Part shown: one piece after another, positions 1 to 41,655 of the stretch | How the letters are laid out: each line of letters opens with the position of its first letter | Numbering within the stretch: position 1 is the first letter of the stretch | Origin: a virus | Direction: 5' to 3' (one strand) | Length of the DNA: 41,655 nucleotides | Virus record (IMG/VR): IMGVR_UViG_3300025570_000030 | Span: 1 to 41,655 of that record | Notes under the pieces: generated by a model | What the model was told of the DNA's origin: nothing | The model's input: the letters and a program-made list of their open reading frames with translations, nothing else | The model's database searches: none | Position numbers and translations under genes: made by a program

Positions 1-32
1 ATTATCTAATAGAGTACGTATTCAAATTGCAA
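1..32 (-). promoter_or_regulatory. Conserved 32-nt element, copy A (putative leftward promoter)
   Basis: Read on the minus strand it is TTGCAA, TTTG, AATACG, nine bases, then AGATAAT. Three other copies (750-781, 862-893, 1712-1743) have the same three blocks at exactly the same spacing. This copy is cut by the window edge, so the following TATA and GAATA positions cannot be checked. It would drive a leftward transcript outside the window. The promoter role is inferred from its position upstream of minus-strand genes in the other copies. Confidence 0.6.
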
Positions 33-114
33 TAAAGTATATAAAGTATTATAGTGTAAAAATAGTTAGAGGGGTATTACTCACTCTCTCTAAGCGGAGA
101 TCAATTAAAAAAAG

Positions 115-165
115 GTGACAATAGCTTATTAAGTAAATATAGTAAGGAGCTAACGTCACACTTTT
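115..165. repeat. 50-nt direct repeat with internal dyad, copy 1
   Basis: Positions 116-165 align without gaps to 1972-2021, about 36 of 50 bases identical. Each copy contains an inverted repeat. Here GTGACAATAGC (115-125) faces GCTAACGTCAC (149-159), with a 23-nt spacer. The arms are conserved better than the spacer. This suggests a protein-binding dyad or an RNA stem, lying upstream (in the leftward sense) of element A. Function unknown. Confidence 0.55.
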
Positions 166-199
166 GGTTACTGGTTTTACCTAAACTCTTTGGTTTCGG

Positions 200-284
200 T
201 GCTATACATACTCCGTATGGTGTGGGTGATCGGGGTGAAAGTGTGGACTGAACATACCTATGCTATACACACGCTGAGGTGTGT
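200..284. repeat. TGCTATAC repeats 1 and 2 with hairpins
   Basis: TGCTATAC occurs at 200-207 and 261-268. The first runs into CATAC-TCC-GTATG (207-219). The second runs into ACACAC-GCTGAG-GTGTGT (267-284). The stem sequences differ while base pairing is kept, so the structure rather than the sequence seems to be conserved. The other three copies of the 8-mer lie at 894-941. These may be operators or RNA elements upstream of leftward element A. Confidence 0.5.
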
Positions 285-379
285 TAGGTTAGATCATTAT
301 TTTTAATCATACATCTGACTCGCACAGATTGTGTCTCGTATATCCTTCTAGATATGATTAATTAGCCGAAGCCATAAGC

Positions 380-700
380 CTACTTTTTAGTAGACTTTTT
401 AGCTTCAGTTATTTCAGCTAGATGTCTAACTGTAGATGGTAAGTTAGTACTTTGTGACCAGTACTTTCTTTTGATCCAGCAAGCTTGTAATCTTAGTTTC
501 GGAAGCATCTGTTCAAGTATTGTATCATGACAGTATGTAACTGTTTGATTTTTGTTGTTGATGAATGTGATCTGTTGATTTCTTCCAAGCCAGCTTTCGC
601 GGACAACAAAGTTCTTTCTTGTTAGAGGAGGCCAGATCGCAGCTTTTTCTTTGTTGGACATAGTTTTTAGAGCTTTTTGCATAATTTCATTTGTAGTCAT
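380..700 (-). CDS. Hypothetical 106-aa basic protein
   Basis: I do not recognise this protein. It is 106 aa, rich in Lys/Arg/Gln, ends in a Lys-rich tail (EAKKSTKK), and has no clear membrane segment. An upstream ATG at 745 would add 15 residues made mostly of Asn from an AAT repeat. I reject it because the same AAT-repeat leader precedes other minus-strand genes here as untranslated sequence, and ATG at 700 follows a sequence (AAATCTTATG) much like that of the 54-aa gene (AATATCTTATG). Two copies of the 32-nt promoter-like element (750-781 and 862-893) lie upstream, so it may be expressed early and strongly. Aromatic residues (WPPL, ESWLGR, CWIKRKYW) suggest a folded domain, possibly nucleic-acid binding. 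That last point is inference. Confidence 0.6.
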   Translation of the reverse strand: MTTNEIMQKALKTMSNKEKAAIWPPLTRKNFVVRESWLGRNQQITFINNKNQTVTYCHDTILEQMLPKLRLQACWIKRKYWSQSTNLPSTVRHLAEITEAKKSTKK

Positions 701-737
701 AAGATTTAATTTTAAGTTATTATTATTATTATTATTT

Positions 738-781
738 TTATTCAACTATATTATCTTTTAATAAGCGTATTTAGTTTGCAA
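738..781 (-). promoter_or_regulatory. Conserved 32-nt element, copy B
   Basis: The core is 750-781: TTGCAA, ACTA, AATACG, nine bases, AGATAAT on the minus strand. It continues as ATA, three bases, GAATA, as in copies C and D. It ends about 40 nt before the start of the 106-aa gene, followed by an AAT-repeat leader. This is the position expected of a leftward promoter. Confidence 0.65.
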
Positions 782-849
782 AGAGAATTTATTTAAATTA
801 AATTTAATATTTATTTTTATATTTATTTTAATTATTATTATTAATTTCT

Positions 850-893
850 TTATTCCCTTATATTATCTTATATACAACGTATTATAATTGCAA
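850..893 (-). promoter_or_regulatory. Conserved 32-nt element, copy C
   Basis: The core is 862-893: TTGCAA, TTAT, AATACG, nine bases, AGATAAT on the minus strand, then ATA, AGG, GAATA. No gene lies between it and copy B, so the two look like tandem promoters for the 106-aa gene. The gap (782-849) is almost pure A/T. Three TGCTATAC copies sit directly upstream (894-941). Confidence 0.65.
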
Positions 894-954
894 TGCTATA
901 CAGCGTGGTGAGATTGCAAAGTGCTATACGCGGTGCTATACACCCCCGAGGGGG
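894..954. repeat. TGCTATAC repeats 3 to 5 with C5/G5 hairpin
   Basis: TGCTATAC occurs at 894-901, 922-929 and 934-941. The last copy leads into CCCCCGAGGGGG (943-954), a GC hairpin striking in this AT-rich region. The cluster lies between the end of the four-gene leftward run and promoter-like element C, so it could be an operator array, a processing site, or a weak terminator (there is no T run on either strand). Confidence 0.5.
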
Positions 955-962
955 CGTTGCGG

Positions 963-1115
963 TTAGACCGCGGACCAGAACTGATCGCGCTGTTCTTCCG
1001 TTAATCCGATGAGGTTTTCCTGATCGAACATTGCCTTACATATATCAGTTCTCCTGATCGATTCATTGTAGGCTTCCGTGACCTGATCCCAGGCCTGTTG
1101 ATTTGTTAGGGTCAT
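963..1115 (-). CDS. Hypothetical 50-aa protein
   Basis: The frame encodes 50 residues starting MTLTNQQAWDQV and ending QFWSAV. It is mildly acidic and polar, with no membrane segment or cysteine motif. I do not recognise it. Its start is one base after the stop of the 47-aa gene (TAGTATG), so the two are probably translationally coupled. It is the last of four small leftward genes from 1634 to 963 and is followed by a C5/G5 hairpin. Higher GC and non-random codon use than the surrounding A/T-rich spacers support it being coding. Tiny acidic early proteins of phages often bind and alter host proteins; that role here is a guess. Confidence 0.55.
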   Translation of the reverse strand: MTLTNQQAWDQVTEAYNESIRRTDICKAMFDQENLIGLTEEQRDQFWSAV

Positions 1116-1116
1116 A

Positions 1117-1260
1117 CTATTGTATTAGTAGTTCGTTAAATTTCCTGATAAAGTTTTCGTGTTCTGACTTGGCACGTTCTAGGTCTTCTTCCTGACTCCA
1201 TGTACGGATCATCCATTCTGGGTTGTCATGTTCTGGGTATCGTTCTTCGAATGTTTTCAT
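1117..1260 (-). CDS. Hypothetical 47-aa acidic protein
   Basis: The 47-residue frame starts MKTFEERYPEHDNPEW and is rich in Glu, Arg and Asp, probably largely helical in its second half (SQEEDLERAKSEHENF). It is unrecognised. It begins one base after the stop of the 51-aa gene (TAATATG) and ends one base before the 50-aa gene. This tight packing of three frames in the same direction supports all three being real. There is no Shine-Dalgarno sequence, as elsewhere in the window. The opposite strand has an 81-codon frame (1228-1473) without credible composition, which I treat as a shadow. Confidence 0.55.
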   Translation of the reverse strand: MKTFEERYPEHDNPEWMIRTWSQEEDLERAKSEHENFIRKFNELLIQ

Positions 1261-1261
1261 A

Positions 1262-1417
1262 TTATATTATATTTAGTTCTATTAGTATTGATTCTTGTAT
1301 GTCTTCCTCCAGGAATTGATCCGTGTCGTAATCCAGTTTCATTAGTTCGATTGTACGTTCTATTTGTTTTAACTTACCTGGATACTCCAGTTCGATTAGT
1401 TGTTGTATTCTGTTCAT
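1262..1417 (-). CDS. Hypothetical 51-aa helical protein
   Basis: The frame gives 51 residues starting MNRIQQLIELEYP, with regular hydrophobic spacing (IQQLIELEYPGKLKQIERTI), so an amphipathic helix or short coiled coil is likely. The C-terminal half is acidic (DYDTDQFLEEDIQE). No family recognised. It lies 52 nt after the 54-aa gene, with a G5/C5 hairpin between them (1434-1451), and is directly followed by the 47-aa gene. The hairpin could tune transcript levels between the first gene and the other three. Confidence 0.55.
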   Translation of the reverse strand: MNRIQQLIELEYPGKLKQIERTIELMKLDYDTDQFLEEDIQESILIELNII

Positions 1418-1433
1418 GGGTTTGTTTTTTAGA

Positions 1434-1451
1434 GGGGGATGTTACACCCCC
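1434..1451. other. G5/C5 intergenic hairpin
   Basis: GGGGGATGTTACACCCCC on the plus strand folds into a GC stem with a short loop. It sits between two leftward genes (stop at 1470, start at 1417). The leftward transcript has CTCTAAAAAACAAA after it rather than a U run, so it is not a standard terminator. It may be an RNA-processing or stability element. Confidence 0.4.
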
Positions 1452-1469
1452 AGTTATTATTATTATTAT

Positions 1470-1634
1470 TTAGATTAATTTATATTTTAAGTATTGTCCG
1501 TCTAGTATTTTAGTTATTGATTCTAGATCATTTGGATTGATTAGTATATAAGATTTGAAGATCTTAATGTTGTGTGATTTGTTTAGAATCATTTGAATTG
1601 TTTTAAAGTTTTGATTGAATTTTAATTTGATCAT
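1470..1634 (-). CDS. Hypothetical 54-aa protein, first of the leftward run
   Basis: This frame encodes 54 residues starting MIKLKFNQNFKTIQM. It is rich in Ile, Lys, Asn and Leu, basic, and has no recognisable domain. It is the first gene after promoter-like element D (1712-1743), with a leader of about 80 nt made of AAT/ATA repeats, like that of the 106-aa gene. The start ATG follows AAATATCTT, nearly the same as upstream of the 106-aa gene start. Its AT-rich codons make chance hard to exclude, but position and shared leader favour a real gene. Confidence 0.5.
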   Translation of the reverse strand: MIKLKFNQNFKTIQMILNKSHNIKIFKSYILINPNDLESITKILDGQYLKYKLI

Positions 1635-1699
1635 AAGATATTTATTTAAAGTTAATTATTAATTATTTATATTATTATTATTTATATTATTATTATTTT

Positions 1700-1743
1700 A
1701 TATTCAACTATATTATCTTTATATAGACGTATTATAATTGCAA
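1700..1743 (-). promoter_or_regulatory. Conserved 32-nt element, copy D
   Basis: The core is 1712-1743: TTGCAA, TTAT, AATACG, nine bases, AGATAAT on the minus strand, then ATA, GTT, GAATA. It precedes the four-gene leftward run. Copies C and D share the first 17 bases. It does not match the usual Bacteroidota promoter (TTTG, 19 bases, TAnnTTTG) well, so a phage-specific sigma factor, activator or polymerase may be involved. Confidence 0.65.
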
Positions 1744-1962: not shown

Positions 1963-1975
1963 GTCACAATGTGAC
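1963..1975. promoter_or_regulatory. Palindrome GTCACA-A-TGTGAC
   Basis: A perfect 6-bp inverted repeat around one central base, typical in size for a dimeric repressor or activator site. Its right half is also the left arm of the second dyad repeat. It lies about 80 nt upstream of the first late gene. The binding protein is unknown; the winged-helix-like product of 12005-12445 is one candidate (inference). Confidence 0.4.
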
Positions 1976-2021
1976 AATAGCTTGTTATATAATAATAGTA
2001 GTAGGCTATCGTCGCGTTTTA
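1971..2021. repeat. 50-nt direct repeat with internal dyad, copy 2
   Basis: This is the second copy of the element at 115-165, aligned without gaps. The arms are GTGACAATAGC (1971-1981) and GCTATCGTCGC (2005-2015). It lies just upstream of the first rightward gene. The same dyad also occurring upstream of leftward element A hints at a common regulator or an origin-like repeat pair. Confidence 0.55.
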
Positions 2022-26570: not shown

Positions 26571-29500
26571 ATGCCAGAGTTTGTACATGTTTTCCAGTCT
26601 GGAAGAATGAACAAAGATCTTGATGAAAGACTTGTTCCAAATGGTGAATACCGAGATGCTTTAAATTTAGATTTAGCAAACTCAGATAATGGCAATGCGG
26701 GTTCTTTAAAGAATGTCCGAGGGAACAGTCAATTAAGGGGCAAGCCTCAATGGAATAATAACTATATAGATTCCTTAACTAATGCAAAATGTATAGGTTC
26801 TTTTGTTGATGATAAGTCAGATAAAATTTATTGGTTTATAACTTCTACAGAAGCTGACTGTATTGCTGAATACAGATTTGCAGGCGGACAAATAAGGCCA
26901 GTTATAGTCGACACTAACAACGTTCTAAACTTTTCTACACAGAACTTAATTACAGGTATAAATATAATAGACAATTTATTATTCTGGACAGATAACAATT
27001 CTGAGCCAAAAACAATAAATATTGACAAGTTTAAACGAGGATCTGTAAACTTTGTAACACACACTAAAATACCAGCCTACGATAGTGCAAGCCAAACTTA
27101 CAGTGCTAATTTAACGGGTAGACCTGATTTTATTGAAGCAGATGTAACGGTTATTAAGAAATCACCACTTACAGCGCTTACATTAGACATGTCCGCTAGC
27201 TCAAGAGGTGACAGCCCCGGGACAGGAACAAATCTGGTTACTTATGGTGTGTATAATCCAGGAACTTTAGAAAAAAGAATAAACTTTACCTATGCTCCTG
27301 ACTCTACTGTTCCGCTAATTAGGGAATCCTTGCCAACCCGATACGATTGGCAAACTAATATCGATGGAGATGCTACTTATTACAATAGTTCTAGTTTAAA
27401 CGGGTGGGATGGTTATTTGTCTCTGAACTTTCAAAATTCATCTTTACCTCTAAATACTTGGAGAGTAGGAGATACTGTTATTTTAACATTTGACTCAAGC
27501 GACGTGTCTTTTACGGATCAAGAATACAGTGTATCTATTAGATTAGTCCAGGATTTTACAGGAATAGGGCTTTGGTGGAAGGCTGAAATACAAGCTATAT
27601 CTTCGGACATAGGTACTTTTGATGACGGGAGCGGAGGCATAACAGAGTTAACGTGGGAGGCGCTATTACAAGAGGAAGATGCAATGTTTGAAGACGTATT
27701 TCCTAGGTTTGCTTATAGATGGAAATATATAGATAATGAGTACTCTACATTTTCTCCATTTTCAGAAGTTGCATTTTTAGGAGGTGAATTTAGCTACGAG
27801 TCCAGAGAAGGGTATAATATTGGGATGATAAACAATATTCGTAAGCTTATACTAAAGGATATAGAATGGGGAAATGATAGTGTTGAGGAAGTTGATATAC
27901 TTTATAAAGAATCAAACAGTTCAGCTGTATATGTTGTTGATACTTTATTAAAAAACGAATCTTACGATACATCAGGCGCTTTAATAACTGAGTTTGAAGT
28001 TCAAACAGAATTGATAGGAGCGTTAGTAGAAAGTAATCAAATACTAAGACCTTGGGATAATGTGCCTAGAAAAGCTCAAGCTCAAGAAATGATAGGCAAC
28101 AGGATAGTGTATGGCAATTATTTGCAAAATTACAACGTACCTACTACTCAACTAAGCTTAAGTTCTATATCTAACGAATACAATCCTAATAACATTGGTA
28201 AGCCTTTGCTTTCTGTTAAATCAATGAGAACTTATCAAGCCGGAATTGTTTACATAGACAAATACGGTAGAGAAACTCCTGTTTTTACAAACAAAGAAGC
28301 AGGAACGCAATTAAGGATCGCTTCATCTAGTAGCTTTAATAGGCTTATAGCGCAACCTACAAACGATCCTCCGTCGTTTGCAACACATTATAAGGTGTTT
28401 TTAAAAGAAACTTCTAACGAATACTATAATTTAGCATTAGACAGATACTACGACGCCGAAGACGGTAATGTTTGGCTTTCTTTTCCTTCTTCGGAAAGAA
28501 ATAAAATATCAGAAGAGTCCTACTTAATAGCGAAAAAGCAACACGACAACAATATACCTATACCTAAGACTACTCGGTATAGGGTTATGTCTATATCTAA
28601 TGAAGCTCCGGATTTTATAAAAACCGTAGGTTTATCATTAGGTACTGAAAACGTAGTAAGTCAATCCTCTATGGAAGTAGGCTCTCTAGGCTTTGCTTTT
28701 ATAGGCCCAAACCCTAGTACAAACCCTCAGTTTGCTCCAAATTTTGCGGGTAATAAAGTTGTTTTTGCGGTAGGTAACTTTACTTCAGATGAATACGATG
28801 TTCAAGATTATAAGGTTGTTAGTCAACCCACCGACTCAACAACTCTTTACGAGCTATCTTTAGACAGAGGAATAGGAGCAGATGCTGCGTTTTTAGCAAA
28901 TGTATCAGTAGGATCTAATTTTTCTATAAGAATAATAGGAGATAAAGAGGAAACAAAACCAGAATATCAAGGTAGATTTTTTGTAAAAATACCTAGAGAC
29001 ATTGAATTTGATGCGAATATAATGAAATCATTTCAAGCTCTGGATCCTGAATATTCTATATTAGGTAGTATTTCTTTTACATTATCTAATAATGGAAATC
29101 TAGGGGAAGTCGGGCCTGGCAGAAACTTCCAATTTGGGTATTACTGGATTGACTGGGGAAATAACTATTCAACTTCAGGATCGGGAAATAATAATGGTAC
29201 TACTAGATTTCATTATGTTGCAGGGAAGGGAGTTTGGATGGATGGAGAACGTGTAACTGGAGGTGCGCCTAATCCCCCTGGGGGACCTATAGGAGGCCTT
29301 ATTAACAATCCCGGGGGAGTGCTACCAGGGCAATACGATTTTTTTCAAAATTTTGGTCCTATAACAAATGGTAGCGAATACTTTGGGTATAGTTATGTCG
29401 GAATAAAAGGAGATGGAGACAATGTTCCACCTAAATATATTGACTCTATGTCAGGCGCTGCGCCCGGACCTTTAGGTCCAATTGTTATTCCAGGTAGTTA

Positions 29501-32114
29501 TAAAACAAGTAGACCAGTATCTCCAAATGGTTTTCTAGCAACAGGAAATTCTGTTAGGTTTCTGCACGAGCCAGATGGGGTGGTGTCGGAAATTTATACA
29601 ATAGAGGAGGCTTATGGATTTTGGCATAAAAGAGGTGAAACTAACGAGGGTGAAACTCGTAACTTTTCCTATACAGTACTGTACAGATTAGATAGACCTG
29701 TATTATGGCAATATGCGCCAGGTTTTAATGGCAATTCTTCATACACAGATCATCTATCAGCTGCTGCAGATATAGTGATACAAGCTGTAAAACCAGTGGT
29801 GCCAAAAGGAGAAAGACTTCTTACATCTAATAACCCCGCTATATTTGAAACGGAACCTAAAGAAGCGGTAGATCTTGATTTATACTATCAAGCTAGTGAT
29901 TCTTTAGCTATAGCAAACTACAACAATCCTGTTGAATTAAAATGGTATAACTGTTTTAGTTATGGTAACGGAGTAGAATCAAATAGGATTAGAGATGATT
30001 ATAACGCAGTTACTATAGACAAAGGAGCTACGGTATCATCTATATTAGCGGACCCATACGGTGAAGAAAGAAAAGGTAGTGGATTTATATTTTCACAAAT
30101 ATATAATTCTACATCGGGTATAAATAGATTAAACCAATTTATACAAGCCCAACCTATTACAAAAGATCTTAATCCTGTATATGGAACTATACAAAAGCTA
30201 CACGCTAGAGACACTGATCTTATAACATTATGTGAAGACAAATGCTTTAGAGTATTAGCTAATAAGGATGCTTTATTTAATGCAGATGGCAATTCAAATA
30301 TAACATCTAACAACAATGTTTTAGGGCAAGCAACTCCTTATGCTGGTGAATTTGGTATATCTAAAAACCCAGAATCTTTTGCAGACTATGGCTTTAGATT
30401 ATACTTTACAGATAAGAACAGAGGAACAGTTCTAAGATTGTCTAGAGACGGTTTGACGGAAATATCTAACAAAGGAATGGGTGATTTCTTTGCAGATGTT
30501 TTAAAACTCAATGGTACTTTACTAGGAACTTACGATGCTGATAACGGATTATATAATTTAAGCTTACCTACACTAGGTTCCGAGTGGAACACTAAGCTTA
30601 ACCCTATTCAATCGGATAACTTGTCTACAGCTTGCGAGGATAATGAGCAAAATCCACCAGCTACAGAAGATTATGTGCATACTACAGTTTCTTTTAAAGA
30701 GTCTGTAGACGGATGGACTAGTAGAAAATCTTTTATGCCAGAATCAGGTGTTTCTTTAAACGATAGATATTTTACATTTAAAGAAGGATTGATATGGGCT
30801 CATGGTGAAAATCTTTTATACAACAACTTTTACGGAGAACAGTATGTAAGTTCTTTTAATGTTCTTGTAAATGACTCTCCTAATATAGTTAAAGGTTATA
30901 CAGCATTAAATTACTCCGGTACTAAATCAAGAGAGTTAGAATACGAAAAAAACAATACTGATGAATGGTATTCTATAGCTGAAGTTAATGCGGAAGGATG
31001 GCGACCTACATCTACTAGAATTAAAAACGCAGGGTGGTATGTAAATTATGTTAGAACAAACTTAGAAGCAGGGGAGATAAAAGAGTTTGAAAATAAAGAA
31101 GGCAAGTATTTTAATTACATAAAAACACTAGCGGTATGTGGGGAAGCTTTTGGTTTAGGCTATTCTACAGAAACAACTTCTGATCCACAAAACTATTTAT
31201 TAACTACTTTTATAGATTTTAATTGCAGTAACACTGGTTCTTCTACAGACCCAGACGAAGAATTAAGGCTATGGACTGATTGGGACCAAATTGTAGGCGT
31301 AAACGATATAACGATTGCTACTCAATCTGATCCTCAAACAGCAAAATGTATAATAGAAGGATTTTACGATACATCAAGCGATTACACTAATATTGCTAAA
31401 GACGGAATTGAATTTAAGTATTTTGCAATAGCTGGATTAGTAGTAGGCACACAATTATATGATTATAACACCGAACAGCCTTTAACGACGGCTGGATTAG
31501 GTTTATACGTACCTCCAACGACTCGTGTGGTAATTCCTAACGACGCAGCTTTAGATAGCAATAACACTTCGGTTAATGTGCCTGACAATTACGATATTAT
31601 AGTTTACAATTCTAGTGGAATTATAACGCAGATAGTACAGTACAATACTTTATTAGCTGCTTGTGGTAGTGATGATATTCCTTTAAACTATGATGGAGCA
31701 CTTTTTCTTTCTGGGCAAACAGTTATTAACACCTCTACTGGAACTTCAACTGTATATGGGCCATATAATGGTTATTGGCCATGCCCGCAAGTATATAGCC
31801 TAGGTGCACTCTCAAGTTTAGGTAGCAATGGAGCAATAACTTATCAATCAGTTGAATTATATAAATTAGCAAGTGATTCATTTACAAGTATAGGAACACA
31901 ATTATATACAGACCCAGCAGGACAAAACGCGGCTACAGCGGGATCTTCTAGAGGATTCTTAGTTAATCCCACCGAAAGTGGACTACCCTTGCCTTACACT
32001 GACTTTAAACTTAGCGGGTTTTATCAATCGAACCCTCAGTTTTATTGGATTAGTATAGATGCCGCGGGTCAAGTCACACAGGCAACATTATGGGATGATA
32101 CCGCGTGTGTTTAA
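26571..32114 (+). CDS. Tail muzzle / tubular B-like protein, very large
   Basis: At 1847 aa this is about twice as long as T7 gp12 (794 aa). N-terminal residues 10-35 (SGRMNKDLDERLVPNGEY, RDALNLDL) and the following DKIYWFIT and ITGINIIDNLLFWTDNN strands are signature phrases of muzzle or stabilisation proteins of crAss-like phages, with propeller-like repeats. PRKAQAQEMIGNRIVYGNY (about 498-516) and SFKESVDGWTSRKSF (about 1373-1387) are further family motifs. A Gly/Pro-rich insertion (about 890-925) and a roughly 280-residue C-terminal Tyr/Thr/Gly-rich extension appear to be additions. It would form the end of the short tail that carries fibres. Neighbours are connectors upstream and a fibre downstream. 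Confidence 0.8.
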   Translation: MPEFVHVFQSGRMNKDLDERLVPNGEYRDALNLDLANSDNGNAGSLKNVRGNSQLRGKPQWNNNYIDSLTNAKCIGSFVDDKSDKIYWFITSTEADCIAEYRFAGGQIRPVIVDTNNVLNFSTQNLITGINIIDNLLFWTDNNSEPKTINIDKFKRGSVNFVTHTKIPAYDSASQTYSANLTGRPDFIEADVTVIKKSPLTALTLDMSASSRGDSPGTGTNLVTYGVYNPGTLEKRINFTYAPDSTVPLIRESLPTRYDWQTNIDGDATYYNSSSLNGWDGYLSLNFQNSSLPLNTWRVGDTVILTFDSSDVSFTDQEYSVSIRLVQDFTGIGLWWKAEIQAISSDIGTFDDGSGGITELTWEALLQEEDAMFEDVFPRFAYRWKYIDNEYSTFSPFSEVAFLGGEFSYESREGYNIGMINNIRKLILKDIEWGNDSVEEVDILYKESNSSAVYVVDTLLKNESYDTSGALITEFEVQTELIGALVESNQILRPWDNVPRKAQAQEMIGNRIVYGNYLQNYNVPTTQLSLSSISNEYNPNNIGKPLLSVKSMRTYQAGIVYIDKYGRETPVFTNKEAGTQLRIASSSSFNRLIAQPTNDPPSFATHYKVFLKETSNEYYNLALDRYYDAEDGNVWLSFPSSERNKISEESYLIAKKQHDNNIPIPKTTRYRVMSISNEAPDFIKTVGLSLGTENVVSQSSMEVGSLGFAFIGPNPSTNPQFAPNFAGNKVVFAVGNFTSDEYDVQDYKVVSQPTDSTTLYELSLDRGIGADAAFLANVSVGSNFSIRIIGDKEETKPEYQGRFFVKIPRDIEFDANIMKSFQALDPEYSILGSISFTLSNNGNLGEVGPGRNFQFGYYWIDWGNNYSTSGSGNNNGTTRFHYVAGKGVWMDGERVTGGAPNPPGGPIGGLINNPGGVLPGQYDFFQNFGPITNGSEYFGYSYVGIKGDGDNVPPKYIDSMSGAAPGPLGPIVIPGSYKTSRPVSPNGFLATGNSVRFLHEPDGVVSEIYTIEEAYGFWHKRGETNEGETRNFSYTVLYRLDRPVLWQYAPGFNGNSSYTDHLSAAADIVIQAVKPVVPKGERLLTSNNPAIFETEPKEAVDLDLYYQASDSLAIANYNNPVELKWYNCFSYGNGVESNRIRDDYNAVTIDKGATVSSILADPYGEERKGSGFIFSQIYNSTSGINRLNQFIQAQPITKDLNPVYGTIQKLHARDTDLITLCEDKCFRVLANKDALFNADGNSNITSNNNVLGQATPYAGEFGISKNPESFADYGFRLYFTDKNRGTVLRLSRDGLTEISNKGMGDFFADVLKLNGTLLGTYDADNGLYNLSLPTLGSEWNTKLNPIQSDNLSTACEDNEQNPPATEDYVHTTVSFKESVDGWTSRKSFMPESGVSLNDRYFTFKEGLIWAHGENLLYNNFYGEQYVSSFNVLVNDSPNIVKGYTALNYSGTKSRELEYEKNNTDEWYSIAEVNAEGWRPTSTRIKNAGWYVNYVRTNLEAGEIKEFENKEGKYFNYIKTLAVCGEAFGLGYSTETTSDPQNYLLTTFIDFNCSNTGSSTDPDEELRLWTDWDQIVGVNDITIATQSDPQTAKCIIEGFYDTSSDYTNIAKDGIEFKYFAIAGLVVGTQLYDYNTEQPLTTAGLGLYVPPTTRVVIPNDAALDSNNTSVNVPDNYDIIVYNSSGIITQIVQYNTLLAACGSDDIPLNYDGALFLSGQTVINTSTGTSTVYGPYNGYWPCPQVYSLGALSSLGSNGAITYQSVELYKLASDSFTSIGTQLYTDPAGQNAATAGSSRGFLVNPTESGLPLPYTDFKLSGFYQSNPQFYWISIDAAGQVTQATLWDDTACV

Positions 32115-36005: not shown

Positions 36006-39000
36006 ATGAACGAAGAAGCATTAAACGACTCGTTTAACCTATTTGCTAGCCAAGGCTATAATGGCTCAATAGAGGATTATAAAGAACTTATGGTGTCTAA
36101 TAAAGACGCTAGGGCTGATTCTTACAACCTGTTTACAGGTCAAGGATATAACGGAACTGACACTGATTTTAATGACCTTATAGGCGTAAGTGGGCAAGTT
36201 ACACTTACAGATGATGAAGTGGGAAAGACAAACGACTCTGCGAATGCGGATCCAAGTGCGGAGTCAAACGTTACGGATTCAACATCGGAAAATGGTTCTT
36301 CGGTATCTCAAGAAAAAGATACTGCCGTTGAAAGATTATTTGGTAAAAATTTTATTACAGATTTTGCAGGAGATTTATACAGGTCGGCCGCATCCGGTTG
36401 GACTCAAGGTGAGTCTTTAGATTCAGCAATGGATATATTTAACGACGGTAAGAACATGACTGAGGATCAGTATGTTGAGTTTGTTAATCAATCCAGAGCA
36501 ATGGAAAATGCTGGTCAAACGGATGAAATGATAGATTTTAGCGAACAGTACGCTAAAGATAAAAAAGAGTATGGAAGTGTAGGGGCGTTTTTTACAAGCT
36601 GGTGGAAAAATCCAACAGTAATGACTCAATATACCGTGCAATCATTATCAAACATGGCTTCTAGCGCGATGAATAGTGATGATGCTGCATTAATAGCCGC
36701 TGGAGGTGCTACTCTAGGGGCTGCTGTTGGAACTGCTGCAACACCTATAGGAACCGTAATAGGTGGACTTGCTGGGGGTATGGGGGCTTTATCAGGAACT
36801 ATGGAGGTTGGTTTTACTACCGCTCAATTACTACAAGAGGCGGCTGTTGAAGCAGGTAAAGATTGGAACACTATGTCCGATACCGAAAGAATAGATTGGA
36901 CTAAAGAAGTTGTAAACAACAAAGATCTTTATGATGATCTAACAAATAAAGCTTTAAAAAGAGGTATTGCTATTGGCGCTATTGATGCTGTTACCGGAGT
37001 ACTATCAGGAGGAGCTGGAAATTTAGCTAGAAAAACTGTATCAACCACCGCTAGGAGCGCTATGGCTGGAGCTGCTGAAGTTGCTGCTGTTGCCGCTACT
37101 GAAACCACTGGTGGATTAGCTAGTGAAATAGCTGGACAATTAGCTGCTGATCAGGAATTAAACGCTCAGGAAATACTTACAGAAGGATTTGCGGATAAAA
37201 CATTTACAATAATAAACGTAGCTCAAGGTGGTTTAAAAGCTCCTAAATATACATTAGCAGGTGAAAAAATGAATGGCAAAAGATTTAGGGAAGCTGTTCA
37301 AATTATGGACGATGCTACTATTGCTACAGCCGAACTTGAAATATCTAATGATCCTTTAATGGAAAAGATAATTCTAAACAGAAAAACCGACATAAAAATA
37401 GATCAAGAGATAGATGCTACTATAAGCGGAGTTGATGATAGAGCTGAAATAATTAAGCTGCAGAAAAAACTAAACAAATTAAAAGGCAATGATAGTGTAA
37501 CCGCAAAGAATACTAGGTCTGAATTAACTTCTCAAATAACTGAAATACAGGATAAGTATAAAGGATCTGAAGTCGATGTAACTATTAAACAACGCCAAGA
37601 AGCTGTAGCTAAAGCAGTTGACACTAAATTTGAAGAGAACTTTAATAAATACTACAAAGGAGCTAAAAAAGCGGCTAAAGACTTGGGCTTTAAGCAAGGT
37701 CCTAAAATTTACAAAACAACTAAGGGGTACGAAAAAGCCATAGCTGCCAAATTTAAATTTGACTCGTTTGATAAATATATAGAAGCTGTAGCTAAAGATA
37801 AAAACATATCTATTGAAAAGGCTGCTAAAATATCAAGAGGATCCGATGGGGTATTCTTAGGTGAAGGCACCATGTTTATTGATAAACAAAAAGCTAAAGA
37901 AGTAGGTGCTATTTCGGGGGCTTCACACGAACTATTACACCCTGTATTTAATGCTGCAATTGGGAGCGCTAATGCTCAAGGTAAAATAGTTAAAGAGTTT
38001 AAGAAAGCAATGACTTCCAAGCAAAAAAGATTTGTTAGGAATAAACTTAAAGCTAATGTAAAACCAGAAAACTGGAATACAGAATACTTAAATTACTTTT
38101 CTGATGCAATATTAAAAGGAGAAATTAATTACGACAAAACTTTATTTGAAAAACTAAAAGACATTGTTCTTGGAATACTTAAAGGAGCTGGGTTTGATAA
38201 TGTTTCTTTTGATAGTGGAAGAGAAGTATATAACTTTTTAAAAGAATACAATACTAGCTTAAAAGAAACTGGACAAGTAAGTGAAAAAGCAGTTGAAGCT
38301 ATTAAAACTGCTGAAACAAAACGTACTACCAAGCTTAGAAAGGAAAATTCTAATGCTCCAGAAGTAAAAGCTGCTACTGTTAGCAGAGTAGGAGATATAC
38401 AAAAATCTGTTAATCAAGAAATATTAGATTTAACAGACGCATTAGATGCTGCAGAGGATGCTTATGCAGATGACGCAGACAATCCTACATTATTAAAAAA
38501 TGTTGAATTAGCTGAAAAAGCTTTAGAGGAAGCAGAAGAAAGAGCGTTATCAGGAAAGCCTGTAGTGGTTAAACCCAAAGAAGAAAAGAAAAAGGTAGTT
38601 AAAAAAGAGCCAAAGCCGGTTCGAACAACTAACTTAGCCCCTCAGACTGCTCAAGATAAAAAAATAATGGATACCTACAATGAAGGTATGAAGGACACTA
38701 AAAGAACTAGTTTTACTAGTAGTAATCCTTTACCTGCTAAAGTAGAAAACAAATTAATACCTCTTTTCGAAGGGTATATAAATACATTAGTACAACAAAA
38801 GTTTAAGCAATATCAATCTGAAGCTTTAGAATTTCAAGATGCGCTATCTATATTAAGAGTAGAAGCAGTTAATGCTTTAAGAACATTTAATCCTGCTCGT
38901 AATGAAAATTTATCAGGATATGTACGTAGGTTAATAGCACTTAGACAACCTAAGATGTTTGAAAAAGCTAATAAAGAATTTACTAGTAGTCTAGATGGTG

Positions 39001-41655
39001 TAGATATAGAGGGAGATGCGGGTGTTATACGTAGCTTTGCTAATGAAGAAACAGTTGCTCCGGAAAGTCTTATAAAAGCATCGAAAGTAATAAGCACTAA
39101 GGTGAAAGACAACTTAGTTAGTATGGTAAAAGCGTGGGCTAGCCAAAATAATATAAATTTTGATCTGTTTAGATTTGGAGATGTAGATGCCAATGCTACC
39201 GTTATTGTAGATGGCAAAAAAGTTACAATACTACATGAATTATTAAAAGAGTTATTTCCTGATGTTAATCCTGAAAAGTTTTTAGATAGCAGCACCATGT
39301 TTACAGGCCCCGAAGCTAGTATCGTTTTAGAAAAGCTAGCCTCTAATGAACAAGAGCTAATAGAGCTATTTATAAATCTTCTACCTAGAGGAGCTGTAAT
39401 GCCTAAAGGCAAGAATAAAGCTATAGTTAAAGACGACAATTATGGTAAGTCAACAAAGCTTGATAAGTCTATACTTACTGCTTTCTATAACAAGGGAGAT
39501 ATATCCGAGCGTTTTACAAAAGACGCTGGACTTATACCTTTTACTTTAAAAGACAATGTCCGTTATAGCGACGTTCACAAAGCTTTTGGAATGGATTCAG
39601 CTGGTAACAAGTTAAACTACAAACGATCCGGTAAAGGAAGCGCAGGGCCCGTTTTAGCGTCCGCATATAAGATGTTAGGTAGACTAATAATGAATGAAAT
39701 TATTAGAACTGACTTAAACCTAACTGCGGAACAGAAAATGAATGTAGGCGCAGGTAAAAGTGATTTACAATTCAGTAAAAACGCAAGTGTTCTGGAAGCT
39801 TTAAATGTTGAGGGCACTGAAAATTTTAGAAACATCTTTGCTCATCATAGCGAAAAATACAGAAAAGAAGGTCAAGATTTATTAATTGAATTAGCTTATA
39901 GGTTTACCCCAGAAGAAGTTAGAGATTATATACTGCCTTTAATTTCTGACGTAGACGGCTCTAACTATGATGGGGACTCGAAGTTGCTTTTTAAAAACAA
40001 AGATGATTTTTTTAGAAAGCTAAAAAAGTACAGAAAAAGTAAATTTGGAGATTACAAGCCTCGTCAACAAAGAATATCTGTTGAAGGTGGAGCCGAATTA
40101 AAATTAGCAAAAGTTACTAGCAAATATTACCAAGGCGCTTCTTTTATAGAAAACATTAAGGCTTTTGTAGGAAATATAAAAGATAGACAAACATTTGCAA
40201 AAGAACAGCAAAAAGGGTTACTTAAAATAGTTAAAACATTGTCAGAAATTTTAGATGAAACTTCTTCTAAAAAAGGAGGGTTTGATGGCAAAAAGTTTAA
40301 AGATATATCATTAGGTATATTTGCTTATTTTAACTATTTAAACACTAAAAATAAGAACGGAATACTTCGTACCTCAGCTGTTCCTACACAAATGGCTATA
40401 ATCCCAAGGCTTTTAGGGTTTAAAGATACACCTGTAAAATATATTTACGAACATACCCAGACCGCTTCCGATACATCGGGAGAATTGTTGCAATTAATAT
40501 TTAATAAATTTGCAAAAAATCAAAAATTTGGCAAAGACGCAAATATTGAAAAAGAATTTAAGGAAATTATGAATGGGTATACAGTTGCATTAATACCAAA
40601 AATTTATGATACCTTATTAAACACAATAGCTAAAGAAAACGGGGACAGAGAAAACACTAAAACCAGGAAAGATTACATTAAAAAATTATTAAAGCCAGGA
40701 GAAGACGGCATTCCTACTAGATATAAAATACCTGCTTTTGAAAGTTTACTTGAAGAATATGGATTAGAATCTTTACAAGATATACTTACGCCTATTAGTA
40801 AAGCAGCTTTTGAAAATGAAGTAGGTTCTGATGCTACAAAGCAGGCAATAATCATGGAAACCCAATTTTCTATAAGTAGAATAGAAACTGCTGATATACT
40901 AAACAAGGCTAACAATAATGCTAATAACATCAATGCCAAGCCTAAAGGTATAAGTGTTTGGGATTTTGACGATACCTTAGCTAAGACTAAAAGCAATGTA
41001 TTATATACAATGCCTGATGGTACTAAAGGTAAACTTAACGCAGAAGAGTTTGCCAAGAAGGGTGATCAGATGCTGGAAGAAGGAGTTGAATTTGACTTTA
41101 GTGAATTCAGTAAAGTTGTTAATGGAAGCAAAGGTCCTTTCTTTGAAAAGGCTATGGCTAGAAATAAAAAGTTTGGAAACAAAAATGTTTTCATACTTAC
41201 AGCCAGACCGGCAAACAGTGAAAGTGCTATACACGAGTTTTTAAAAGGTATTGGATTAGATATACCTTTACAAAATATTACTGGCTTAGCTAATTCCTCG
41301 CCTCAAGCTAAGGCTAACTGGGTTGTAGGTAAAGCTGCGGAAGGTTATAATGATTTTTATTTTGCAGACGACGCTACTCAAAATGTTAAAGCCGTTGATA
41401 AGGCATTAAAAAAATTACCTGTTAAAAGTAAAGCTGAACTAGCAGTAATTAAAAAGTCGGATATACAGTTTAGTATGAACACTAAGTATACAACTAAATG
41501 GGCAGGTCTAAGGGATTTACCGGGAAATGAGAGCGCACGTGACTTAGTTACTAGTGGGACTCTAAGAGTTGGTGAAAATACGATTGGAATAACAATTGAC
41601 GATGGAGCTGCTCCAGGTAGTGAAGCATTGGACTTTGAGTTTCCAGATTTAGGTA
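36006..41655 (+). CDS. Giant internal virion protein with HExxH and HAD domains (partial)
   Basis: The frame is open from ATG 36006 to the window end, at least 1883 aa, with no stop. Residues 9-30 and 40-61 are tandem repeats (FNLFASQGYNGSIEDYKELM and YNLFTGQGYNGTDTDFNDLI). A Gly/Ala-rich hydrophobic part lies around 225-280. H641-E642-L643-L644-H645 in SGASHELLHPVFNA is a zinc-peptidase motif, with a possible third ligand in NTEYLNYFSD. A Lys-rich linker follows (about 860-880). Near 940-980 a segment (ILRVEAVNALRTFNPARNEN, then LSGYVRRLIALR) faintly recalls sigma-70 region 2. Residues 1653-1789 are a full HAD phosphatase: DFDDTLA, T1732 in FILTARP, and D1788-D1789 in YFADDAT. It resembles ejected proteins in place of T7 gp16, and probably acts inside the cell at entry. 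Confidence 0.82.
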   Translation, partial: MNEEALNDSFNLFASQGYNGSIEDYKELMVSNKDARADSYNLFTGQGYNGTDTDFNDLIGVSGQVTLTDDEVGKTNDSANADPSAESNVTDSTSENGSSVSQEKDTAVERLFGKNFITDFAGDLYRSAASGWTQGESLDSAMDIFNDGKNMTEDQYVEFVNQSRAMENAGQTDEMIDFSEQYAKDKKEYGSVGAFFTSWWKNPTVMTQYTVQSLSNMASSAMNSDDAALIAAGGATLGAAVGTAATPIGTVIGGLAGGMGALSGTMEVGFTTAQLLQEAAVEAGKDWNTMSDTERIDWTKEVVNNKDLYDDLTNKALKRGIAIGAIDAVTGVLSGGAGNLARKTVSTTARSAMAGAAEVAAVAATETTGGLASEIAGQLAADQELNAQEILTEGFADKTFTIINVAQGGLKAPKYTLAGEKMNGKRFREAVQIMDDATIATAELEISNDPLMEKIILNRKTDIKIDQEIDATISGVDDRAEIIKLQKKLNKLKGNDSVTAKNTRSELTSQITEIQDKYKGSEVDVTIKQRQEAVAKAVDTKFEENFNKYYKGAKKAAKDLGFKQGPKIYKTTKGYEKAIAAKFKFDSFDKYIEAVAKDKNISIEKAAKISRGSDGVFLGEGTMFIDKQKAKEVGAISGASHELLHPVFNAAIGSANAQGKIVKEFKKAMTSKQKRFVRNKLKANVKPENWNTEYLNYFSDAILKGEINYDKTLFEKLKDIVLGILKGAGFDNVSFDSGREVYNFLKEYNTSLKETGQVSEKAVEAIKTAETKRTTKLRKENSNAPEVKAATVSRVGDIQKSVNQEILDLTDALDAAEDAYADDADNPTLLKNVELAEKALEEAEERALSGKPVVVKPKEEKKKVVKKEPKPVRTTNLAPQTAQDKKIMDTYNEGMKDTKRTSFTSSNPLPAKVENKLIPLFEGYINTLVQQKFKQYQSEALEFQDALSILRVEAVNALRTFNPARNENLSGYVRRLIALRQPKMFEKANKEFTSSLDGVDIEGDAGVIRSFANEETVAPESLIKASKVISTKVKDNLVSMVKAWASQNNINFDLFRFGDVDANATVIVDGKKVTILHELLKELFPDVNPEKFLDSSTMFTGPEASIVLEKLASNEQELIELFINLLPRGAVMPKGKNKAIVKDDNYGKSTKLDKSILTAFYNKGDISERFTKDAGLIPFTLKDNVRYSDVHKAFGMDSAGNKLNYKRSGKGSAGPVLASAYKMLGRLIMNEIIRTDLNLTAEQKMNVGAGKSDLQFSKNASVLEALNVEGTENFRNIFAHHSEKYRKEGQDLLIELAYRFTPEEVRDYILPLISDVDGSNYDGDSKLLFKNKDDFFRKLKKYRKSKFGDYKPRQQRISVEGGAELKLAKVTSKYYQGASFIENIKAFVGNIKDRQTFAKEQQKGLLKIVKTLSEILDETSSKKGGFDGKKFKDISLGIFAYFNYLNTKNKNGILRTSAVPTQMAIIPRLLGFKDTPVKYIYEHTQTASDTSGELLQLIFNKFAKNQKFGKDANIEKEFKEIMNGYTVALIPKIYDTLLNTIAKENGDRENTKTRKDYIKKLLKPGEDGIPTRYKIPAFESLLEEYGLESLQDILTPISKAAFENEVGSDATKQAIIMETQFSISRIETADILNKANNNANNINAKPKGISVWDFDDTLAKTKSNVLYTMPDGTKGKLNAEEFAKKGDQMLEEGVEFDFSEFSKVVNGSKGPFFEKAMARNKKFGNKNVFILTARPANSESAIHEFLKGIGLDIPLQNITGLANSSPQAKANWVVGKAAEGYNDFYFADDATQNVKAVDKALKKLPVKSKAELAVIKKSDIQFSMNTKYTTKWAGLRDLPGNESARDLVTSGTLRVGENTIGITIDDGAAPGSEALDFEFPDLG

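Follow-up and report, generated by a model that had tools for sequence, protein, structure and literature searches.

A near-invariant putative early promoter in a large group of uncultured Bacteroidota podoviruses, with a phage sigma factor as its candidate reader

Introduction

Phage sigma factors classically serve later gene classes, as in SPO1 (gp28, gp33/gp34) and T4 (gp55), where they act on middle or late genes, and the known promoters of single-subunit phage polymerases are shorter than an element of 39 bp that reaches to −38. The early promoters of phage N4, read by its virion RNA polymerase, carry a hairpin around −11 (PMC4496689), and promoters of Bacteroidota follow a consensus of TTTG at −33 and TAnnTTTG at −7 (PMC2483708). 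Here, we set beside these systems a three-box element that is repeated at the head of the early arm of a podovirus and its relatives; among open-access papers, we found none describing this promoter.

Results

Four copies at the head of the early arm

The window (the whole stretch of DNA analyzed, 41,655 bp, identical with the complete IMG/VR virus record) comes from a podovirus that is kin to the Flavobacterium elemo phages and Cellulophaga phage phi38:1, as marked by its terminase, portal, capsid, and large virion proteins. Its terminase shares 46% identity with the elemo phages, 61% with Manatee Spring phage MW202828, and 35% with phi38:1. Set against these related genomes, the window comprises most of the rightward structural arm, whose rightmost gene continues beyond the contig end. 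Of the leftward early arm it covers no more than the initial 2 kb, with the motif copies forming the head of that arm. The features concerned are as follows.

1..32, minus strand: promoter copy A, truncated past AGATAAT where the contig ends
115..159, no strand assigned: 45-bp imperfect palindrome, copy 2, between the 106-aa gene and copy A
380..700, minus strand: early protein of 106 aa, downstream of copies C and B
741..781, minus strand (boxes 750–781): promoter copy B, presumed start G 743, 43 nt before the ATG at 700
853..893, minus strand (boxes 862–893): promoter copy C, presumed start 855, in tandem with copy B
963..1115, minus strand: early ORF of 50 aa, with homologues in G004, G005, and G007
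1262..1417, minus strand: early ORF of 51 aa
1470..1634, minus strand: early ORF of 54 aa, the candidate first early gene, behind copy D
1703..1743, minus strand (boxes 1712–1743): promoter copy D, presumed start G 1705, 71 nt before the ATG at 1634
1971..2015, no strand assigned: 45-bp imperfect palindrome, copy 1, at the divergent junction, immediately ahead of the first rightward (late) gene
36006..41654, plus strand: giant late protein with a sigma region-2-like stretch at about 38715–38990

All four minus-strand copies (1–32, 750–781, 862–893, and 1712–1743) match TTGCAA-N4-AATACG-N9-AGATAAT gap-free and with 0 mismatches, just as a sequence-only reading of the window had listed them, and the continuation ATA-N3-GAATA noted there is present in all three complete copies. 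The window holds no other match, even with up to 3 mismatches allowed. Dinucleotide shuffles of the window yielded a mean of 0.03 copies and never reached four, which excludes chance as the origin of the motif. Copies B/C and D lie upstream of leftward genes, as had been read, and the leftward arm opens with copy D as its first promoter. Copies C and B would act in tandem as promoters for the 106-aa gene, and a like pair stands upstream of the homologous gene in relatives.

The 106-aa protein belongs to a family (FVVRKSWLGRNQIITFTNNK...YNHD) that occurs in all 18 motif genomes first examined, sometimes as two copies per genome. Its AlphaFold model is confident (pLDDT 91), and no match was found in Pfam, PHROGs, or the PDB, by fold or otherwise, so that no function can be given; nor did cultured phages in INPHARED contain a match at E 0.01.

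The same phages carry a second, separate element, a rigid 45-bp palindrome of the form GTGACANTAGC-(about 23 nt)-GCTANTGTCAC. It recurs at the divergent junction and/or just past the 106-aa gene in G003, G004, G005, G008, G017, G018, G019, and many of L150–L229. Because its arms differ within a copy, it looks protein-binding rather than like an RNA hairpin. Short gaps between early genes in the window (207–268 and 901–941, minus strand) additionally contain GTATAGC five times, and in relatives L154–L157 this heptamer marks the left edge of variant promoters (GTATAGCAAAAACGA...TATAATA).

On the late arm, a promoter search by k-mer enrichment surfaced only a conserved ATTATATTATATC, which is almost invariant directly before the ATG of the gene following the major capsid gene. 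That gene (window around 24025; L025–L104) is preceded by a terminator-like hairpin in many relatives. Further along (26571–32114, plus strand), an 1847-aa virion protein resembles the C-terminal domain of the muzzle protein of crAss-like phages, with a score that narrowly misses the Pfam cut-off (E 3e-5).

Distribution among relatives

Searching relatives for the spaced motif returned many further copies, on the early-gene strand of related phages. Scanned for exact matches, IMG/VR yielded 20 loci, the majority of which contain several additional degenerate copies, and a weight matrix recovered 125 copies in 18 genomes and 0 in reversed sequence; two exact matches, L018 and L019, resemble coding coincidences. 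Since circularity was to be avoided, loci were then gathered through two protein families, the 106-aa early protein and the phage sigma factor described below, and not through the motif. Loci chosen by the 106-aa protein contained 502 copies, every one on the gene strand; the opposite strand and reversed sequence each gave 0, and 79 of 80 loci have a copy at most 400 nt upstream of the gene. Those chosen by the sigma factor contained 408 copies upstream, 14 downstream, 2 on the opposite strand, and 1 in the null; where at least 3 kb of upstream sequence was available, 62 of 66 loci had the motif. ORFs cover 46% of the strand in question, whereas only 26 of 424 distinct copies fall inside one, unlike the random or coding placement that would speak against a promoter. 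Intergenic placement on a single strand likewise rules out a coding repeat.

No copies were found in the motif-free relatives elemo, MW202828, and phi38:1, and the element looks specific to a phage family. Within that family, boxes can change genome by genome: all copies of G032 (= L189) have changed together to ATATAAGTTTRACACGA, and all those of G022 (= L155) read AAAACGAC...TATAATA. Changes common to all copies of a genome are what a lineage-specific reader would leave. As far as its sequence tells, the element is repeated, directional, intergenic, start-site-like, fixed in geometry, and the property of a phage group. This placement in relatives bears out the promoter reading, and we consider the element almost certainly a promoter.

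Consensus, spacing, and presumed start site

Conservation extends beyond the 32 nt first delineated, over about 39 bp up to the presumed start site. The full consensus is TTRCAAACTAAATACGA-N9-GATAATATA-nn-TGAA, with an information content of ~36 bits as computed from copies selected by score. The 19 fixed bases of the sequence-only reading are all exact within the window; in the wider family, A is commoner than G at position 3 (TTRCAA reading TTACAA in most genomes) and position 13 is T or C. Conservation reaches 99–100% at C15, G16, A28, T29, and A30 in the aligned family set. Spacing is equally strict: ACG-N10-GATAATA holds in 373 of 382 counted copies, other spacings amount to 9 in total, with no single alternative (4 to 17 tried) exceeding 4 copies, and the distance from the first box to ACG is just as fixed.

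Every copy has a purine at position 39 (G 89%, A 11%), and in the 424 copies with a downstream gene the distance from there to the ATG has a median of 24 nt and a sharp edge at +2, with 26 start codons lying 2–4 nt past position 39 and hardly any before it. Because of this invariant purine and the edge of start codons, we place the transcription start at position 39, which puts GATAAT at −12 to −7 (GATAATATA spanning −12 to −4), ACG at about −25 to −23, and TTRCAA at about −38 to −33. Nearly leaderless messages would result for some genes, among them the sigma gene in nine loci where a copy lies 38–41 nt before its ATG. About one helical turn separates each of the conserved centres (near −35, −24, and −10) from the next, a geometry that appears to allow recognition by one protein on one face, as had been proposed, while the upstream boxes and the −10 box could also have different domains or proteins as readers.

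Discussion

A phage sigma factor as candidate reader

At the end of the early block, these phages encode a sigma70-family protein of ~250 aa in which regions 2 and 4 are recognized (Pfam r4 6e-6, r2 4e-5; PHROG_351 1e-27). The window ends short of the position where this gene is expected. It was found in 35 of 42 records; three of the seven records without it are motif-free phages, and at least three of the other four are contigs that lack the region or are cut at it. Motif genomes in which the region is complete encode the sigma factor, and it is absent from the motif-free elemo, MW202828, and phi38:1. Because the sigma factor accompanies the motif and is absent from motif-free relatives, we favor host RNA polymerase programmed by it, and rate the chance that host core enzyme plus this 250-aa protein is the reader, as these comparisons suggest, at about even. 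The co-occurrence may be common ancestry. The upstream box co-varies significantly with the sigma factor (partial Mantel r 0.28), but likewise with the neighboring Erf-like gene (0.36) and exonuclease (0.34), and among the three genomes with a divergent sigma factor (G022, G023, and G024) two keep the ordinary motif. G022, where the divergence is strong, is also without the 211-aa gene normally found ahead of the sigma gene; in G009 (L116), the sigma gene is apparently interrupted by stops and canonical promoter copies remain.

Mechanistically, we posit that the element would be the early-class promoter of a large uncultured podovirus group of Bacteroidota, with GATAATATA as its −10 region and ACG and TTRCAA as upstream contacts at fixed distances. 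Transcription would begin at the G ~39 nt from the left edge, and each of the one to a dozen copies per genome would control a single small early gene or a short series of them, all encoded on the same strand. Host core RNA polymerase would read the element once given a phage-specific specificity factor, which would most likely be the sigma70-family protein that closes the motif-controlled block. In some phages the sigma gene lies directly behind a motif copy, from which positive feedback would follow. Its position at the far end of the block also means that, if the sigma factor is needed, something else must provide the first molecules of it.

Alternative readers

A possibility that we regard as rather doubtful is that the host housekeeping sigma reads the element with a host or phage activator on the TTRCAA and ACG boxes, the late genes being left to the phage sigma. 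Copy D leads the leftward arm and has nothing upstream to give a phage factor, the sigma gene comes late in the block (in some phages with a motif copy directly upstream), and GATAAT is a generally usable −10 sequence; the phage sigma may read the late arm, with the motif being read by something present at infection. Against this stands the poor fit to the usual Bacteroidota promoter, on which the sequence-only reading was right: at about −7 the consensus has GATAATATA and no TAnnTTTG, and upstream, TTRCAA at −38 to −33, fixed in its distance, stands in place of the TTTG (PMC2483708) or TTG that the host type has at about −33 with tolerant spacing. Host-type sites (TTG-N17-22-TAnnTTTG) show no clear excess in 80 motif loci (44 vs 35 in the reversed control), whereas motif-free elemo has TTG...TAnnTTTG sites at the same divergent junction. 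Moreover, box changes are common to all copies within a genome, and the spacing is far more rigid than housekeeping promoters usually have. On balance, the reader is probably phage-specific rather than the plain host housekeeping sigma. It is very unlikely that the element is instead an operator or other binding repeat, such as a repressor or partition site: it is repeated, conserved, and intergenic as such a site would be, but it is strictly confined to one strand and non-palindromic, has a purine start position and a sharp start-codon edge, and occurs in phages that carry the separate palindromic element.

Two further readings would supply a factor from the phage itself. A sigma-like domain might be delivered to host RNA polymerase by the giant late protein, whose place in the virion is suggested by gene order; its region-2-like stretch, also present in G026 and G056, matches Pfam Sigma70_r2 (E 0.01 for the excised region and 8e-5 in one genome), and a profile of five relatives had a single match in the PDB, the N-terminal domain of SigE (8b3z, E 0.003), to which the AlphaFold model of the domain aligns with a TM-score of 0.74 on the target and an rmsd of 2.6; the leading Foldseek matches of that model are mostly sigma factors. 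All scores are nevertheless below curated cut-offs, the model is poor (pLDDT 48), the best Foldseek E is 0.15, and a profile comparison of the giant protein with the free sigma gave nothing. With the domain clear in only 3 of 35 records, it would not be a general reader unless diverged elsewhere, and we consider delivery by the virion improbable as an account of the motif. Where present, such a domain would solve the start-up problem. We attach the same low probability to a combined scheme in which the domain enters the cell inside the injected giant protein, and the free sigma later takes these promoters over by positive feedback; if true, this would be a sigma-based counterpart of the injected N4 polymerase, redirecting host RNA polymerase to early promoters from the start. 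A diverged and unrecognized phage RNA polymerase, single-subunit or crAss-type, seems decidedly improbable. The high information and fixed spacing are like those of single-subunit promoters, giant virion proteins (2,000–3,900 aa) occur in these phages, and the 1847-aa protein has its muzzle-like domain, but the searches gave no support for the phage polymerase first suggested for this element, and a sigma70-family factor was found instead. No match to multisubunit polymerase (PF00623) was found in 23 records, with the control detected in 14 of 14; single-subunit polymerase (PF00940) likewise had no match in these 23 records, a search in which the positive control was detected nowhere. The DxDxD motif is not present in the giant protein of the window, and a reach to −38 exceeds that of known single-subunit promoters.

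Implications and comparison with known systems

A near-invariant early promoter with a candidate reader and predicted starts in tens of genomes offers a testable transcription programme for an abundant, uncultured group of viruses of aquatic Bacteroidota, and the element is usable as an early-gene marker in metagenomic contigs. A further question is how infection starts when the earliest promoters do not resemble those of the host.

Among described systems, T7-type single-subunit promoters are similarly long, information-rich, and fixed in spacing (the likeness to TAATACG being by chance), but the present motif extends to −38 and has a variable N9 between boxes, and no polymerase was found. 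The promoters of the N4 virion polymerase share the setting of podovirus early genes, phage-specific promoters, and giant virion proteins; they differ in their hairpin, as the aligned copies show no N4-type inverted repeat at −11 (consensus by inspection), and in the polymerase, of which none was found here. Like the Bacteroidota housekeeping promoter, the element would drive genes in a Bacteroidota setting and is followed by A-rich leaders; fixed spacing, an ACG box near −24, and a TTRCAA box from −38 to −33 set it apart. Closest to the reading favored here are the promoters of phage sigma factors (SPO1 gp28 and gp33/gp34, T4 gp55), which also form a phage-specific class with a −10-like and an upstream box in phages that encode a sigma70-family protein, and the present element would work as they do if the sigma factor is its reader; unlike these, it is found ahead of the earliest leftward genes known, not of middle or late ones, and combines three boxes at fixed spacing.
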